A stretch of DNA of 24,246 bases. Origin: a virus. The stretch lies in IMG/VR virus record IMGVR_UViG_3300028388_003057, positions 1 to 24,246 of that record. The stretch is one strand, 5' to 3'. Shown one piece after another: positions 2,175 to 11,788 of this stretch. Below the pieces are notes generated by a model. The model was given only the letters and a program-made list of their open reading frames with translations, did not search any database and was not told where the DNA came from. How positions within the stretch are numbered: position 1 is the first letter of the stretch; each line of letters opens with the position of its first letter. Position numbers and translations under genes: made by a program.

Positions 2175-2885
2175 TTATTGCTTTTCAATTATTAAATATT
2201 TAATTCTTCCTTTACCTTCTCCGCAACAAGGATTTGTTCCTCCAGTTTGACCAAACCTATAAGTGGTAGAAAAACCTGTGCTTCCAAATTGCTGCGCTAC
2301 ACCACGCACTTCATAAACTATTGTCTCTGCTCCTGTAACCACCTCTGCAAAGTCTAAATGTATATCGTGTTTTCTAACAGGATAAGTTCCACCGACTGTT
2401 GTTGTGTTGTTGTATTCTGCCCTCTCCTTGCTAAAAACACCTTCTACAGGTACGCCATTCCTAAAAAACGAAAGACCTACATAGGCTGCAAGATCCGTGT
2501 TTTGTCCAACATCAGGGTAAATAGAGACATTCGCCTCAAGGCTGATCAGGTAAGTCCTATCAGCAGGCACAACAACTTCTAATGACAATCCAAGAGGTAT
2601 TGAATTGTTGTGATTAAACCCACTCCCAAAAACAAAATGAGATTGACCGTTTTCCATAAACACAATTCCCCCATCAACAAACGGTGCTGCTGAACTGTTA
2701 CCAACACCAATCACTCCTTCTGAATCGGCAACAAGTACGCTTCCGTTTGGTATTGATGATAAAGAACGTATCCTGGCAGTTCCATTTACGTCAAGTGTTT
2801 CTGTTGGCTGCGTAGTATTAATCCCAACCTGACCAAAAGCTAAATCAGTTGCGATCAATAAAACAAAAATCAGCAGCTTAATCAT
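2175..2885 (-). CDS. exported beta-rich protein with flavobacterial 'GINTT' N-terminus
   Basis: A 236-residue protein with a clear Sec signal peptide (residues 1-18, hydrophobic LLIFVLLIA, likely cut before QVGINTT). The mature start (QVGINTTQPTETLDVNG, then ARIRSL) matches a pattern common in secreted Flavobacteriia proteins and fibre-like adhesins. The rest alternates short hydrophobic strands with Gly/Asn/Thr turns, as in a jelly-roll or C1q/TNF-like sandwich, and ends in a Cys pair (NPCCGEG) and a final strand (KYLIIEK). I see no type IX secretion C-terminal domain. It abuts the gene before it (stop 2888-2886, start 2885) and is followed by the endolysin, so it is in the lysis operon. Export to the periplasm argues against a virion component. 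Its function is unknown. Confidence 0.75.
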   Translation of the reverse strand: MIKLLIFVLLIATDLAFGQVGINTTQPTETLDVNGTARIRSLSSIPNGSVLVADSEGVIGVGNSSAAPFVDGGIVFMENGQSHFVFGSGFNHNNSIPLGLSLEVVVPADRTYLISLEANVSIYPDVGQNTDLAAYVGLSFFRNGVPVEGVFSKERAEYNNTTTVGGTYPVRKHDIHLDFAEVVTGAETIVYEVRGVAQQFGSTGFSTTYRFGQTGGTNPCCGEGKGRIKYLIIEKQ

Positions 2886-3514: not shown

Positions 3515-6500
3515 TATTTCCACTTTTTAATTCCGTTTATGTCAACTGTTCTCCAAGATCTTATTGTTTTTGGCAATCTTCTTCTCCAAGATTTTATTGT
3601 GTAGCCTCCAATTAATCTAATGTTTTCAACCGTATGAACGTGCATACAGTTCGCCACCACTAAGGTAATCTTTTCCTGCAAAATAGGAACTTCACTCGTA
3701 TGTGAGTGAGAAGATCCCTGAACTGTAAGAAGTTCCGCCTCTGTCAGTTGAGGGTTTTCGGCTGTGTGTCCGTGTACCGCATCGTCAACAACCAGATCAT
3801 AACCCTGACTTAAATCAACGTTATCTGCTGTATGGTTTTGAGAAGATCCGTCAGCAATAACCTCAAAAAACGGAACGTATATGAGATTAGGCTCGTCTGA
3901 TGTATGAGAGTGTGATGAATCTTGAACTGAAATCACAAACCCTTGAACTAAACCAACGTTATCCGCTGTTTGAGTATGCGATGATCCGCTTACTGAAAGT
4001 TGGTTTGATTGAGATAAATCAACGTTCCCGGCAGTATGATTGTGAGTTGCCTCGTTTGGACTTACAAAGCCATCGGCTGACAGTACAACGTTTTCACTTG
4101 TATGATTTTGGGATGCGTCATCAACATCGATGACATTGTCCTGTGATAAGAAAACGCTATCTGATGTGTGCGCCTGGCTTGAATCGGCAACAGCAAGCGT
4201 GTTTTTTTGTAATAGAGCAACAGCATCAACCGCGTGTCCGTGATCAGAACTTTGAACTGTTAAAAGTTCAGCTTCTGTTAGTTGCACACTATCCGCAGTA
4301 TGGGAATGAGTCGTTGACTGAACGGCTATTGTGTTTGCCTGATCAAGAACCACTCCTTCTGCAGAATGACTGTGTGTTGAACCTGCAACAACCAAATCAA
4401 TTGCTTGAGTAAGCGCAACGCTTTCCGATGTATGGGTGTGCCTGCTTTGCGCAACAACTAAATCAATCGCTTGAGTAATATTTACAGAATCGGCAGTATG
4501 GTTGTGCCTGCTTTCTGCAACAACCAAGTCAATTGCTCCTGTGATATTTACATTATCGACAGTATGGGTATGTGCAGAATCATTGCTCGATATTACTGAA
4601 GCCTGATCAAGCGTAACGTTTTCTGTTGTGTGATTATGTGAACTTGACTGAACCGTTAAAAGCTCCGCTTCTGTAAGCGTTGGCTGTCCTGCTGTATGCG
4701 TATGCCTTGCATCAAAGACAACAATTTCTGTCGCTTGATTAAGTTCAATATTTTCAACAGTATGCTCGTGGCTTATGTTGCCGTTTAGAACCTCTCCTGT
4801 AATTTTAAATCCAAGATCATTGCCTGTAGACACATAGGAAGATCCGTTCCAGTAAAATGAATTTCCAGGGTGTATTGTTGGGTCAAAAGGATTTGAAAAA
4901 GAACTTGTTATTGATACACCGTCAAGATTTGTATCGTTTACCCAATCTGAATAAACCCACTCGATGCAATAATTATCTCCGTTAACTGGCTGATATGGAA
5001 CATCAAATTCTAAATAGACCCAATCTTGAAGTGTTGAAATGCTCGCTGCTGAAACGCTTTTTTCCGCTAATATTGCTCCTGTTGGTACTGATGATGATCC
5101 GTAAACACCTGAATGAGATCTAAGCCTACAAGTTAAAGTTCCGTCAGGGTTGTTTTTTCTTCTTCCAAGAAATGAAGCACCAACAATTAAAGTTCCATCA
5201 GATGTAAATGATTGACCCCTTACTGTGTCGTTATACCAAATTGTCCCTGTCGAAAAAAGACTTGTTGTGTTCTCGTCAACAATTCCAAGTTCAAGTATTG
5301 ATATTACATTAGCCTGAACAAGGTCTGCTCCGTCAGATGAATGATTGTGCGATGCAGACTGAACGACAACCTCAATTGATGTTGAAATTGTTACATTATC
5401 CGAAGTATGGTTATGTGCTGCATCGTCTAAAACAATATTAAACTGTCCCGGCGTTTCAACTAAAACATTCTCAACTGTATGATTATGTGTCGCTGACTGA
5501 ACGGTTAGTAAAGCTGCTTCATTGATCGTAACTGCATCAACTGTATGAGAGTGGCTACTTCCAGAAACAACCAGATTAATAGCTTGAGCAACTTCAAGGC
5601 TATCCGTAGTATGCGTGTGCGTTGTTTCGTTTGAAACCAAAACGTTTGCTTGTGAAAGGCTTACGTTTTCGCTTCTATGATTATGAGTTGTTTCGTTTGT
5701 CGCAAGAATATTGCTTTGAACTAAATCAACATTTTCGGTAGTGTGATTATGCGATGCGTCCTGAACAGTTAAAAGTTCTGCTTCAGTAAGAACAACGTTT
5801 CCTGAAGTGTGTGTATGACGTGTGTCAAATACAACAAGATCTATCGCTTGTGTAACATCTACGTTCTCGCTTGTATGTCCGTGAGAAGCGTCCTGTGATG
5901 TAACTGAATATTTTGCTTGAAGTGCAACGTTTTCGCTTGTGTGCGGGTGTGAACTTTCATCTGAAGTAATTGTGATTGAAAGATCAACAGTAACGTTTTC
6001 TGAAGTATGTGTGTGAGTTGTATCGTTGCTCACCAACGTAAATGCAACCGATAACGCAAGATTGCCATCGGCAGTATGATTGTGAGATGAATCGTTTATT
6101 GCAAGAACGTGAGCCTGTAACAGATCAACATTGTCAGATGTCTGATCGTGCGCAGCTTCATCAGGAGACGCTGTTACATTTTCAGATACATCAACATTTT
6201 CCGTGGTATGCGTATGAGTTGCGTCCTGAACGGTCAGCGTAAAACCTTGACTTAAAGTAACCGCATCCGCTGTTTGACTGTGTGAAGACCCTTGAACTGT
6301 TAAACTAAAACCTTGTTCTAAGGCTACATTTTCCGAAGTATGATCGTGGGTTGCGTCTTGAACCGTTAATGTTACGCTACCACCGCCACCACAATTTGAA
6401 CCACCTTGAATAACAACAGAAATAATGTGTTCTGCTCCAGTGAATGATTGTGTATCAGAAGCTGTTCCTGCATCCTCTTCATAAGTTGCAGCAATATTCT

Positions 6501-7911
6501 CCGTTGTTCCAAGCGGGCTATTTATAAAATATGTTTGGTCTGTACCAATTCCAGTAATTGCTCCATTGGTAGAATACCCTGCTGAAAGAATTAAGTCATA
6601 ACTGTTTGTTGGTGTAATATTTTGACTGCTTGCACTTGTTCCAACTTCACCGTAATAAGGTGTAGTAGCATCAATCCCTTTTACAGCTATAGCTGCTATT
6701 CGGCATAATTGTCCAAAGAAACCTGATGAACTTGCTGTGATTGTGTGTGATGCTGCTGTATTTGGGTTTACGCATAACCACATCTCAAAGCTATCCTCGC
6801 TTCCTATTGCAATGTCAATTTCTTTAACAAAAGTATTTCCTTGATTGTCTGTTACACTATTAATACCTGAACCAAAAAATCCACCACCTCCTGCAAAAAC
6901 AACAATAATATCTGCATCAGTAGTCTCAATTGTTACGGATGCTTGTGTTGTTCCTTGCCCCGTATCACTATCAATAATATCATTACAAACATTCGGGTTT
7001 GAAATTTCATTTGTTACAGCTTGATTTGACCAACTGTCTGCTTCATTTGGAGTTGCAGCATCATCTTGGAGTGGGTTTGTTCCAGGCTTTGTGTAGTCAA
7101 ACTGTATGGTATCTCCAAAAGCAAAGTCGGTGTTTACTGTAATTTCAAGCTGTCTGTTTCCTGTACCAGTAAGTGCTACACCAGTAACAGTCCTTGTCGG
7201 AGAATCAATATTAAATGCAGAAGTAGCGGGTACACTTGTTGCATCTAAATCCTCATTGGCTGTGGCAAATATTTTATTCTTTGTTCCATTCTCAACTCTA
7301 AAGTTTGAGAATGTAGGTTTTGTGGTGTCTGGTCCACCAACAGGAAGTATTATTGTAGCTGCTACCGAAGCTGTAGATGCCTCGGTTTGTGTATCTGCAC
7401 TTGCTGTGCCTGTTTCTTCTGTAAGAGTTTTATTTGTTTCAAGTGTACCAGTCCTAAATTCAACTAAGGATTGTCCACTTCCGAGAGTTGTACCATTACC
7501 ATTTGAGAAAATACTAATAATGTAATCATCTGAACTGTTTGGTGTAACAGTAGTCGATGCATTTGAAGTTGTATTATCAACTTGAAGACCATAATATCCA
7601 CTTCCAGAAGTATCAATGCCTGAATATGCAGCAACACAACCATTTATGGTAGCTGTACTGCTTATAGTAACGGTAATTACAAGATTTGTTGCATTTGTTG
7701 GGTTTACACAAACTGCAAATGCTGTGATACCATTTGCAACTACATTAGAATAAGTGTTTCCCTCTGAATCTGTAACTGTAGTTGTTACAGATGTCGGATA
7801 GTTTAAAGCAACTACAATAATATCAGAACCAGTCGAGTTTATCGAAGGGAAATCAAATGTAGACACCCCTGAAGCTCCACTTGACGTATTTGCTATTCTT
7901 GTGATTGCCAT
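3514..7911 (-). CDS. giant repeat-rich fibre/adhesin-like virion protein, 34 HxH repeats
   Basis: A 1465-residue protein starting at ATG 7911. Residues 1-192 and about 306-505 are two copies of one beta-rich domain, sharing a T-D-(S/N)-x-G-N-T segment and a C-V-N-P segment. Between them, about 193-305, lies an Ig-like domain of SwmB type (DTTKPTFSNF... PGTNPLQD... SNQAVTN). Residues 519-873 and 1044-1442 are tandem 22-residue repeats with consensus D-x-(S/T)-H-x-H-T-x-(E/D)-N-V-x-L-x-Q-A-x-x-L-x-V. Residues 874-1043 are an inserted beta-sandwich domain (GQSFTSDGTLIVGASF... CIEWVYSD... LGFKITGE). The last 23 residues are basic and Trp-rich. There is no signal peptide. Position after the fibre genes and before the holin suggests a tail-associated or head-decorating adhesin that contacts the host surface. 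The exact virion location is unknown. Confidence 0.8.
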   Translation of the reverse strand: MAITRIANTSSGASGVSTFDFPSINSTGSDIIVVALNYPTSVTTTVTDSEGNTYSNVVANGITAFAVCVNPTNATNLVITVTISSTATINGCVAAYSGIDTSGSGYYGLQVDNTTSNASTTVTPNSSDDYIISIFSNGNGTTLGSGQSLVEFRTGTLETNKTLTEETGTASADTQTEASTASVAATIILPVGGPDTTKPTFSNFRVENGTKNKIFATANEDLDATSVPATSAFNIDSPTRTVTGVALTGTGNRQLEITVNTDFAFGDTIQFDYTKPGTNPLQDDAATPNEADSWSNQAVTNEISNPNVCNDIIDSDTGQGTTQASVTIETTDADIIVVFAGGGGFFGSGINSVTDNQGNTFVKEIDIAIGSEDSFEMWLCVNPNTAASHTITASSSGFFGQLCRIAAIAVKGIDATTPYYGEVGTSASSQNITPTNSYDLILSAGYSTNGAITGIGTDQTYFINSPLGTTENIAATYEEDAGTASDTQSFTGAEHIISVVIQGGSNCGGGGSVTLTVQDATHDHTSENVALEQGFSLTVQGSSHSQTADAVTLSQGFTLTVQDATHTHTTENVDVSENVTASPDEAAHDQTSDNVDLLQAHVLAINDSSHNHTADGNLALSVAFTLVSNDTTHTHTSENVTVDLSITITSDESSHPHTSENVALQAKYSVTSQDASHGHTSENVDVTQAIDLVVFDTRHTHTSGNVVLTEAELLTVQDASHNHTTENVDLVQSNILATNETTHNHRSENVSLSQANVLVSNETTHTHTTDSLEVAQAINLVVSGSSHSHTVDAVTINEAALLTVQSATHNHTVENVLVETPGQFNIVLDDAAHNHTSDNVTISTSIEVVVQSASHNHSSDGADLVQANVISILELGIVDENTTSLFSTGTIWYNDTVRGQSFTSDGTLIVGASFLGRRKNNPDGTLTCRLRSHSGVYGSSSVPTGAILAEKSVSAASISTLQDWVYLEFDVPYQPVNGDNYCIEWVYSDWVNDTNLDGVSITSSFSNPFDPTIHPGNSFYWNGSSYVSTGNDLGFKITGEVLNGNISHEHTVENIELNQATEIVVFDARHTHTAGQPTLTEAELLTVQSSSHNHTTENVTLDQASVISSNDSAHTHTVDNVNITGAIDLVVAESRHNHTADSVNITQAIDLVVAQSRHTHTSESVALTQAIDLVVAGSTHSHSAEGVVLDQANTIAVQSTTHSHTADSVQLTEAELLTVQSSDHGHAVDAVALLQKNTLAVADSSQAHTSDSVFLSQDNVIDVDDASQNHTSENVVLSADGFVSPNEATHNHTAGNVDLSQSNQLSVSGSSHTQTADNVGLVQGFVISVQDSSHSHTSDEPNLIYVPFFEVIADGSSQNHTADNVDLSQGYDLVVDDAVHGHTAENPQLTEAELLTVQGSSHSHTSEVPILQEKITLVVANCMHVHTVENIRLIGGYTIKSWRRRLPKTIRSWRTVDINGIKKWK
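3549..3600 (-). repeat. short direct repeat coding the Trp/Arg-rich C-terminal tail
   Basis: Nineteen bases at 3549-3567 recur at 3582-3600 with one mismatch, 33 bases apart. They code for TI(K/R)SWR twice in the C-terminus of the giant protein, followed by a third, diverged IKKWK. It resembles the tandem 'K-x-W-N-G-x-x-W' tails often found at the ends of phage structural proteins. Confidence 0.6.
3586..4782 (-). repeat. tandem 66-bp coding repeats, array 2 (18 units)
   Basis: Eighteen in-frame units of 22 codons (three have 23) encode residues 1044-1442 of the giant protein. The first begins GNISHEH and the last NCMHVH. His-x-His is kept in most; Gln replaces one His in four (SQAH, SQNH, HTQ, SQNH). 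Units carrying TEAELLTVQ recur within the array, but their DNA differs at many synonymous positions, so the copies are old. Confidence 0.9.
5293..6357 (-). repeat. tandem 66-bp coding repeats, array 1 (16 units)
   Basis: Sixteen in-frame units of 22 codons (one of 23, one of 24) encode residues 519-873 of the giant protein. The first unit begins DATHDHTSENV and the last SASHNHSSDGA. Two units have His-x-Gln instead of His-x-His (HSQ, HDQ). The array is separated from array 2 by exactly 510 bases coding for the inserted domain. Confidence 0.9.
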
Positions 7912-9294: not shown

Positions 9295-9845
9295 TTGATC
9301 ATATCTTTTTTACTCCACAACCTTATTTTATAAAGATAGCGAAAATCGTTCATACCAAACTGAAAGTTGGTGTACCACCACAAAGTCCTGAATGTTGCTG
9401 AAAATCTAAACTGCTTTTTTCCCCAAACATCAAAAGTTGAAAGTTGTATGCCTCTTACTGTTTTATCGCAAAACTCAAGTCCATCAAACTGCGTTGTGTT
9501 CCAATAAACCTTTAGATTTAGTTTTGGTAGTGAGCTGTCGTATGGTCGAAGTACGTATGTCTTCATACTGTAAACAGGGTTGCGAATAGCATTCCATCTG
9601 TAAGACGCAAGAAACTTCCTGTACCACGTATCAAGCTTGATCTTTTTTTCCTTTTGCCACCAAATTGCTCCAAACTTGTTTTCAAACAATGTTGGCTCAT
9701 CTGAGTTGATAAACCACCAATAAGGGATGACTTTTTTCTTATACACCCAATCAAAAATCGGGTAAATAAACAGGTAAAAAACCCACCCAATTGGCACAAG
9801 CAACAGTAGTAGCAATCCTGAAAAAACGTATCTAAAAATCATCAT
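9291..9845 (-). CDS. membrane protein within the fibre module, 184 aa
   Basis: An N-terminal hydrophobic stretch (about 7-32, VFSGLLLLLLVPIGWVFYLFIYPIF) could span the membrane once or as a tight hairpin. A soluble, strikingly aromatic domain follows, with YWWFINSDEP (42-51), a WNAIRNP motif (84-90) and several WW or YW pairs. The 'YWWF..DEP ... WNAIRNP' pattern is familiar from a family of uncharacterised phage proteins, which I believe is catalogued as DUF7338. It overlaps the fibre gene stop as TAATG and the BppU-like start as ATGA, so it is a true member of the fibre operon. A membrane protein here could aid fibre assembly or alter the host surface. Its function is unknown. Confidence 0.65.
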   Translation of the reverse strand: MMIFRYVFSGLLLLLLVPIGWVFYLFIYPIFDWVYKKKVIPYWWFINSDEPTLFENKFGAIWWQKEKKIKLDTWYRKFLASYRWNAIRNPVYSMKTYVLRPYDSSLPKLNLKVYWNTTQFDGLEFCDKTVRGIQLSTFDVWGKKQFRFSATFRTLWWYTNFQFGMNDFRYLYKIRLWSKKDMIK

Positions 9846-11788
9846 TATGGCTTTTTAAATTCTAAGTTGACAACTAAGCCTTTCTTTGCAGTTAAGCCTG
9901 TCCCTGAATATTTAACTCTAAGCTTATCGCCCTTTTGAACATCGTCATAAGTTGTGTTTATTGTCCCATCGCTTGCCGTGTATTCGCTGTCAGATACCGT
10001 AACAGCAGATGAAAGCATATTTATTAGCGTCCCATTTCTAAACCTTTCTATCTGTACCGTAGCTGTTGAACCACTTCCGCCTAATGTGTCGCAAGTAACG
10101 GTAACGTCTTTTAAGTTAAAGCCGTCTAATGTTGCTCCAATGCAAATTTCATCTGAAGCATAAACATTTGACCCTGTAACATCTGATGTTCTTCCAACTG
10201 CTGTTATTGAAACTTCTCTTTGACCAAAAACAGATCCTTTAAGCTGCCCTGGCGTTATTGCAAGTGTACTCGAAGTTGCGGAGTCAATCTCTTCCGCTAT
10301 TGCGCACTCAATAACTCCCTGCGCTGTGGTACTTGCATCCGTAATGTAATCACCATCAATCAATGTGCCTCTCCAAGTGCCTGTTGTGATAATGCCAACC
10401 GTTGTTATATTTGAACTTCCTGACCAATCTTTTAATTTCTTAGGTGTTACCGCTCGTTCATCGTCTGTGCCTAACGAAACCTCTCCTGCTGTTGCAATCT
10501 CAATAATCCCTTTCTGCAATTCAGTCGCAGAAGGCAAGCTTGTTCCTGGAATGTCATCTCCTTGCCACGTACCGCTTGTGATAGTTCCTACAGTTGTAAT
10601 ATTTGTGCTTCCTTGCCAAAACTTGAGTCCAGCAGGCGTTATTGCTTTAGTTGAATCTGTTCCTCCTTGAACTTCCGCAACACTTGCTATTTGTATTACA
10701 CCCCTCCCTACTGATGTTGAAGGCTCTACATAATTACCGCCTATTTGATCACCCTGCCACACACCAACTCCAATTGTCCCAACACTTGAAATATTTGTAC
10801 TTCCATTCCAAGCGCCAAGCCTTGTTGCAAGTGTCAAAGGTGTTACCGCTCTTGAAGAGTCCGCTCCAGCATTTACTTCTGTTTGCGTGGCGATTTCAAT
10901 AACGCCTTTTGTTGTAGTTGAAGCATCAGGCTCATCCCCTGTATTTGTTCCTGATAAATTTTGAACATAAGATGTTGAGATTGGCGAACCTTGCCAAGTT
11001 CCTGTCGTAATAGTTCCAACGGTATTTATTGAAGTTGCGCCTGTGTAGCCTGTAAGATATCCGTTAAGTCTTGATGCCAATGTCGAAGGCGTTACTGCTC
11101 TTGTCGCATCAGAACCGGCATCAACCTCGCTTTGTGTTGCAACCTCAATCAAGCCTTTTTGAGTAGTTGATGAAGACGGCAAATAGCTTTCTCCTATTAC
11201 AGATCCTTGCCAAGTCCCTGAAGAGATAGTGCCAACTGTTTCAATGTTTGCGCTACCATTCCAATTTGCAAGTGTAGCTGGCACAACAGCCTTGTCTGCA
11301 TTTAATCCTGCATTAGTTTCAGCTATCGTTGCAATCTGTATCGCGCCCTTATTTACTGAACTCGCACTTTGAAGATATTGTCCTTGAATTTCTGAAGCTT
11401 GCCAGGTGCCAGTTGTAACTATACCAAGTTTTGTTAACGCCCCAAGATCAATGTTTTCGTCAGGGAATGTTATAACCCTTGTTACTCCTGTTGAAACACC
11501 ACTCACTTGAAATGAAATCTTTTTTGTGGCATCGGCATTGTCAAAAACCTCAAAAGCAGAATCGGAAAAAGAACCTCCGCTGCTTCCAACCCACGTTTTT
11601 AAAGTACCCCATTTTATGTGAAGGGTTAAGCCTGTTGCGTTAATTCGTATCGCAAAAATATCATTGTCATTTGGCTCCCCTGTGAGTTCTGTAAGCTGCG
11701 AGAAGTCTTTTGAATCCGTTAGAATCTTCTCAATATTTGCCGAGTTCTGATCAACTCTACTCGCTACCTGGTCTAATCTTGCGCTCAT
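9845..11788 (-). CDS. tail fibre protein with six tandem repeats
   Basis: A 647-residue protein. The N-terminus (1-30) looks like a short coiled coil (LDQVASRVDQNSANIEKIL). Residues about 36-65 form a 'TGEPNDNDIFAIRI... IKWGTLKTW' attachment-like segment. From 121 to about 523 there are six repeats of 59-79 residues, each combining GT(I)TTGTWQG..I, a KG(V/L)IEIAT..EV.AG.D..RAVTP..L segment and W.GS.NI.TV. The second element is the classic T4-like/Mu-like fibre repeat and the first is familiar from S74-chaperone-type fibres. The C-terminal 124 residues form a different beta-rich domain, possibly the receptor-binding tip. No self-cleaving chaperone motif was found. It is probably a trimeric fibre. 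Confidence 0.85.
   Translation of the reverse strand: MSARLDQVASRVDQNSANIEKILTDSKDFSQLTELTGEPNDNDIFAIRINATGLTLHIKWGTLKTWVGSSGGSFSDSAFEVFDNADATKKISFQVSGVSTGVTRVITFPDENIDLGALTKLGIVTTGTWQASEIQGQYLQSASSVNKGAIQIATIAETNAGLNADKAVVPATLANWNGSANIETVGTISSGTWQGSVIGESYLPSSSTTQKGLIEVATQSEVDAGSDATRAVTPSTLASRLNGYLTGYTGATSINTVGTITTGTWQGSPISTSYVQNLSGTNTGDEPDASTTTKGVIEIATQTEVNAGADSSRAVTPLTLATRLGAWNGSTNISSVGTIGVGVWQGDQIGGNYVEPSTSVGRGVIQIASVAEVQGGTDSTKAITPAGLKFWQGSTNITTVGTITSGTWQGDDIPGTSLPSATELQKGIIEIATAGEVSLGTDDERAVTPKKLKDWSGSSNITTVGIITTGTWRGTLIDGDYITDASTTAQGVIECAIAEEIDSATSSTLAITPGQLKGSVFGQREVSITAVGRTSDVTGSNVYASDEICIGATLDGFNLKDVTVTCDTLGGSGSTATVQIERFRNGTLINMLSSAVTVSDSEYTASDGTINTTYDDVQKGDKLRVKYSGTGLTAKKGLVVNLEFKKP
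10220..11428 (-). repeat. six tandem fibre repeats (about 180-240 bp each)
   Basis: In-frame units code for residues 121-185, 186-257, 258-336, 337-400, 401-464 and 465-523 of the fibre. Units 2 and 3 carry insertions (LTGYTG and NLSGTNTGDEP segments), which lengthen them to 72 and 79 residues. The rest are close to 64. Confidence 0.8.

Follow-up and report, generated by a model that had tools for sequence, protein, structure and literature searches.

The viral DNA analyzed here, 24,246 nucleotides in length and referred to as the window (IMG/VR record IMGVR_UViG_3300028388_003057), encodes on its minus strand a protein of 1,465 amino acids that is best explained overall, and somewhat probably, as an adhesin of the phage virion in the form of a whisker- or tail-fiber-type fiber with a β-rich shaft built from HxH repeats. 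The assignment to a virion fiber or whisker adhesin derives from the linkage of the repeat gene to a small partner gene, the whisker-type fold predicted for the partner product, and lectin-like inserts in related repeat proteins. The fiber role itself, with the virion location and adhesion deduced from these features, is considered likely with good confidence, and the long fiber-like protein proposed by the first-pass annotation is in agreement with it.

A scan for [HQ]x[HQ] motifs places 34 in-frame units in the protein, 28 having HxH and six having one histidine replaced by glutamine (first motif residue at amino acids 544, 588, 1246, 1268, 1312, and 1358), the same count as obtained at first pass; the span of 3586-6357 given at that stage is correct to within part of a unit, with the units occupying about 3604-6375. 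Units recur every 22 amino acids apart from three spacings of 23 or 24, leaving aside a non-repeat insert of ~171 amino acids that splits the array into 16 and 18 units and makes the step from unit 16 to unit 17 one of 193 residues (Table 1). The motif contains 62 of the 67 histidines in the protein. When the protein sequence is shuffled 2,000 times, the HxH count has a mean of 3.0 and a maximum of 10 compared with the 28 observed, and pairs of HxH exactly 22 residues apart reach a maximum of 1 compared with 19 observed. The array is therefore far from chance, as both counts and spacing exceed all 2,000 shuffles.

Table 1. Coordinates in the window of the repeat gene, the regions of its product, and the partner gene
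Feature	Position	Strand	Remarks
HxH-repeat protein ORF, 1,465 aa	3514..7911	-	no Pfam/PHROGs/NCBIfam/PDB sequence match
N-terminal domain 1 (aa 1-192)	7336..7911	-	from sequence; by eye like aa 305-505
Middle domain (aa 193-304)	7000..7335	-	Big_5 (bacterial Ig-like) candidate, below cut-off
N-terminal domain 2 (aa 305-505)	6397..6999	-	from sequence
Repeat block 1, units 1-16 (aa 513-867)	5311..6375	-	unit scan
Inter-block non-repeat domain (aa 868-1038)	4798..5310	-	193-residue step
Repeat block 2, units 17-34 (aa 1039-1436)	3604..4797	-	unit scan
Short basic C-terminal tail (aa 1437-1465)	3517..3603	-	sequence
Partner gene, 125 aa	7983..8360	-	71 bases upstream of repeat gene

No match to the repeat protein was found in Pfam, NCBIfam, PHROGs, or the PDB sequences, and the repeat profile has no match among PDB sequences at E<=1. 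For the individual regions, no family match above the cut-off was found for N-terminal domain 1 and no family match for the inserted domain; those of N-terminal domain 2 all lie far below the cut-off, and the middle domain matches PF13205 with E=0.0017 and 19.5 bits (cut-off 23.6). Comparison of the domain pieces with other ORFs found no relatives. The C-terminal tail has a similarly short, Arg-containing counterpart in many relatives of the repeat protein, and recurring R-T-I/V motifs (e.g. RSITIPSDGRTRTI) are present in the post-array tails of loci L135, L118, L183, L129, and L195 and of the window, possibly forming a shared capping element.

Related loci were collected from IMG/VR and GTDB using a DNA pattern in which three HxH[TSAP] motifs follow one another at intervals of 66 bases; the pattern is present 12 times in the window and 0 times in window shuffles. 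The loci were confirmed by searching every open frame of the pattern-matched stretches with an HMM built from the units of the window protein. This search of other phages and bacteria, which the first-pass annotation had suggested, matches tandem units in at least 44 viral (IMG/VR) loci and one GTDB contig (L319), with E below 1e-9 for nearly all of them, mostly by a wide margin, and the weakest retained being L151 at 1e-5 and L031 at 7e-3. Among the matches listed, the other pattern-matched genome stretches gave no HMM match to the repeat, which in this sample is therefore essentially confined to phages. The same pattern with a 69-base period identifies true relatives in L030, L031, and L061, its other matches being mostly chance or low-complexity HxH, and a related-locus search with a 16-unit block as query found no confirmed relative. 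tblastn found no repeat match in plasmids and, in phages, matched Microcystis phage Mae-JY22 alone, the only cultured phage found with the repeat. The Mae-JY22 hypothetical protein XAI95683.1 shares the repeat with the window protein in a short array of eight units (E 9e-10), and a homologue of the partner gene lies near its gene. The deposited Mae-JY22 gene begins at codon 248 of a 472-codon frame that reaches the record end (L001:3-1418); the annotation probably places the start too far downstream, because the upstream part reads like the lectin-type N terminus of relatives.

Relatives have between 2 and 27 units in a single ORF, and the arrays of several are interrupted by domains of roughly 120-330 amino acids, some of which read as ConA/LamG-like. 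At least two adjoining or slightly overlapping repeat-bearing frames occur in each of L155:3180-9649, L141:6456-9463, and L118:2643-7977, as if a gene had been duplicated or broken. The loci in which relatives carry the repeat gene also encode a portal, terminase, prohead protease, or capsid protein, belonging to several phage families, and because these portals, terminases, and capsids are of several kinds the repeat gene and its partner travel together between phage groups. A literature search found nothing relevant on the HxH repeat itself. The family is new as far as Pfam, PHROGs, and NCBIfam go, the general kind, a repetitive phage fiber, being already known.

The partner product has the family consensus MAKxxxDxVLDxAL...GDTSGRKxTV...YVTTCTSQALTAG...IEIADP, with homologues in 31 of the 44 listed viral repeat loci, encoded on the same strand and often adjacent to the repeat gene, compared with none in 151 control viral loci of equal median length that have the same kind of pattern without the repeat. 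Its AlphaFold (AF2) model is confident (pLDDT 93.8), and a Foldseek search of the PDB matches it to chain K of the Sf14 neck (9c39_K, prob 1.00, E 8.3e-4, TM 0.63/0.72) and also to connector chains of Bas63 (9mt4), with far weaker matches to GP4 fiber I (8jou) and the tail fibers of phage 7-7-1 (9rkv). Chain 9c39_K aligns over its full length with the gene-31 product of Sf17, a close relative of Sf14, and the publication on Sf14 names gp31 as a whisker protein (PMC11821841); 9c39_K is thereby identified as the gp31 whisker protein. The partner family scores 0.6 bits against the gp31 sequence, which is not significant, and since sequence similarity is nil the likeness is at the level of the fold only. 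Of 27 partner family members, 4 have a match to PHROG family phrog_3758 (virion structural protein). The family PF23140 (GP4 gp80, fiber I) was considered for the partner and rejected, because it matches a single one of the 27 members, with a score of 15 bits that falls short of the cut-off of 27. The partner protein is accordingly modeled, as a prediction, with a neck-whisker or fiber-anchor fold.

The Sf14 whiskers are composed of gp30 and gp31 (PDB code 9C39), with the gp31 fold being that matched by the partner model. Their genes lie between the portal and protease/capsid genes (PMC11821841), as they do in Sf17, and in some relatives the repeat and partner pair is similarly located among head genes. 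In contrast with Sf14, the pair in the window is elsewhere in the gene order, after tail genes and before lysis-type genes with no adjoining portal, and an HxH repeat is unreported in the Sf14 whiskers.

Several other genes in the window are identifiable. The minus-strand gene 9845-11788 encodes a second repetitive fiber-like protein, six stretches of which match PHROG 910 (tail collar fiber protein). A candidate VanY-like endolysin (1718-2188) adjoins the minus-strand gene 1163-1714, whose 183-amino acid product opens in the manner of a lipoprotein (FSFTGC), has a membrane segment at its C terminus, and looks like a one-piece spanin (u-spanin), with no curated family match above the cut-off found for it. 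The product of 2175-2885 (minus strand) has an N-terminal signal peptide and GQVGINTTQPTETLDVNGTARIRSL at its start, in a style often seen among proteins secreted by Bacteroidetes, which hints at a host from that group.

The consensus of the unit across relatives is L16-x-V18-x-D20-A-x-H1-x-H3-T-A-D6-N7-V8-x-L10-T-Q12-x-H14, with about five hydrophobic core positions per 22 residues. The third histidine at position 14 is common in relatives and is found in 1 of the 34 window units. Substitutions were counted free of bias by taking only units of relatives flanked by two clear HxH units (n=267). HxH is retained in 244 of these mid-units, with 13 having HxQ, one QxH, and nine other single losses, and none has lost both histidines; position 1 is histidine in 261 (98%) and position 3 in 250 (94%). 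A structural role of the histidine pair is well supported, and its near invariance in at least 45 related loci bears out the earlier suggestion that the motif is kept by selection. Glutamine is the preferred replacement, with losses being single, one per unit; it can still form hydrogen bonds but coordinates metal weakly, which makes it unlikely that every unit holds a strict metal site. Length variants of 20 and 23-26 amino acids mostly retain the acid at position 6 together with L10, L16, V18, and D20, which places the indels between positions 10 and 16, and positions 11-15 form what reads in the alignments as a loop taking nearly all length changes. An internal 11-residue half-repeat, prompted by an extra QxH in relatives, was considered and rejected, as the hydrophobic positions have no 11-residue recurrence.

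The window units have a mean pairwise identity of 36% in protein and 48% in DNA, with identity at third codon positions of 0.35 compared with 0.54 at first and second positions. Fourfold sites agree in 0.43 of unit comparisons, compared with the 0.33 expected from composition. The low DNA identity, the greater divergence of third positions, and this fourfold agreement indicate that the copies are old. The earlier claim of synonymous divergence stands in part: third positions are the more diverged and selection on the repeat protein is plausible from the codon comparison, but the synonymous sites are not fully randomized. Units 21 and 22, with 73% DNA identity and a TRF array at 4430-4569, are a more recent duplication than the other copies.

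The closest functional comparison is with the tip of T4 gp37, in which, as cited in PMC11705849, HxH motifs hold seven iron ions in the trimer. HxH iron sites are proposed in marine phage fibers (PMC11705849), and a conserved HxH is described at the Mu, P2, and Sf14 needles (PMC11821841). As in gp37, several paired HxH occur along the window protein (28 of 34 units), whereas the seven irons of gp37 contrast with 34 regular 22-residue units, six with glutamine. The tail fiber gp12 of Alteromonas phage R22Y has six HxH (PMC11705849), four of which are exactly 22 residues apart; the acid and I/V that follow them occupy the same positions as in the window unit. The second half-unit of R22Y gp12 reads as helix (NGLRSEIDSK), in contrast with that of the window unit, which reads as β, and gp12 scores 3.6 bits against the repeat profile, too low to claim common ancestry. 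No homology by sequence to gp37, or to any other HxH fiber of solved structure, was found for the window protein or the repeat profile. With HxH in published fibers, including the 22-residue spacing in R22Y gp12 (PMC11705849), the gp37 analogy drawn at first pass is a reasonable one, and the window protein might function as a metal-held fiber. By the same analogy, metal at most units is a tentative proposal, a little short of an even chance; the 34 metal sites per trimer, or the protonation-sensitive joints, put forward at first pass are hypothetical.

An eight-unit segment folded as a monomer (AF2) with 40 gapless aligned rows gives a model of low confidence (mean pLDDT 45.5, pTM 0.32) with about three strands per unit, for which Foldseek finds no PDB match at E<=0.001, β-helices leading the list; the model calls for cautious interpretation. 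The short strands and the predominance of β-helices among the top, insignificant matches are in keeping with a single-chain β-solenoid, with 22 residues being a fit for one β-helix coil and the histidines and glutamines forming metal-free hydrogen-bonded ladders like Asn ladders; glutamine as the usual substitution and the restriction of indels to one turn agree with such a structure. However, a genuine solenoid would usually be predicted with high confidence from 40 diverse sequences in the alignment, compared with the pLDDT of 45 and insignificant matches obtained here, and this arrangement is considered unlikely, with roughly the standing of a serious minority view. The low-confidence packing between units in the model and the range of unit number among relatives, as expected for a length-tuned tether, would also suit a string of small metal-independent β modules forming an extensible, perhaps pH-sensitive tether bearing lectin domains. 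A 22-residue unit with so few core positions is unlikely to fold alone, and the near-invariant histidines exceed the needs of a tether, making this a rather improbable explanation. That the array is a metal-collecting surface exploiting host metal uptake, a Trojan-horse hypothesis in print for HxH tail fibers (PMC11705849) and compatible with the high histidine content of a virion-type protein, is very improbable here, as the histidines share one face of the strand and keep the phase of the hydrophobic core positions, suggesting burial rather than exposure.

The failure of the eight-unit monomer mildly favors an intertwined oligomer, and an oligomeric state for the shaft is marginally the better expectation. 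In the proposed fiber, the N-terminal domains and the whisker-fold partner would attach the repeat protein to the particle, and the β-rich shaft of 34 modular units would make up most of the remaining protein, interrupted by one globular domain, possibly lectin-like. Each unit would comprise a fixed core of ~17 residues (L16 to L10) followed by one elastic loop (11-15), and its two histidines would project from a single face of a short strand. The shaft would most likely be a homotrimer with the HxH pairs directed toward the axis, and metal would be bound, as in T4 gp37, at many units though perhaps not at every one. The most complete form of this proposal, neck or tail fibers with a whisker-fold anchor and a shaft stitched by metal at nearly every 22-residue step to a total of up to about 30 metals per fiber, has perhaps one chance in a few of being correct in full.

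If the fiber proposal is true, many environmental phages would have a simple fiber shaft of tunable length, perhaps amounting to a protein rod densely loaded with metal. The linked partner gene would provide a handle on the fiber attachment site and on the annotation of many hypothetical phage proteins, and the regularity of the repeat makes it testable in general whether the HxH motifs of phage fibers hold metal.
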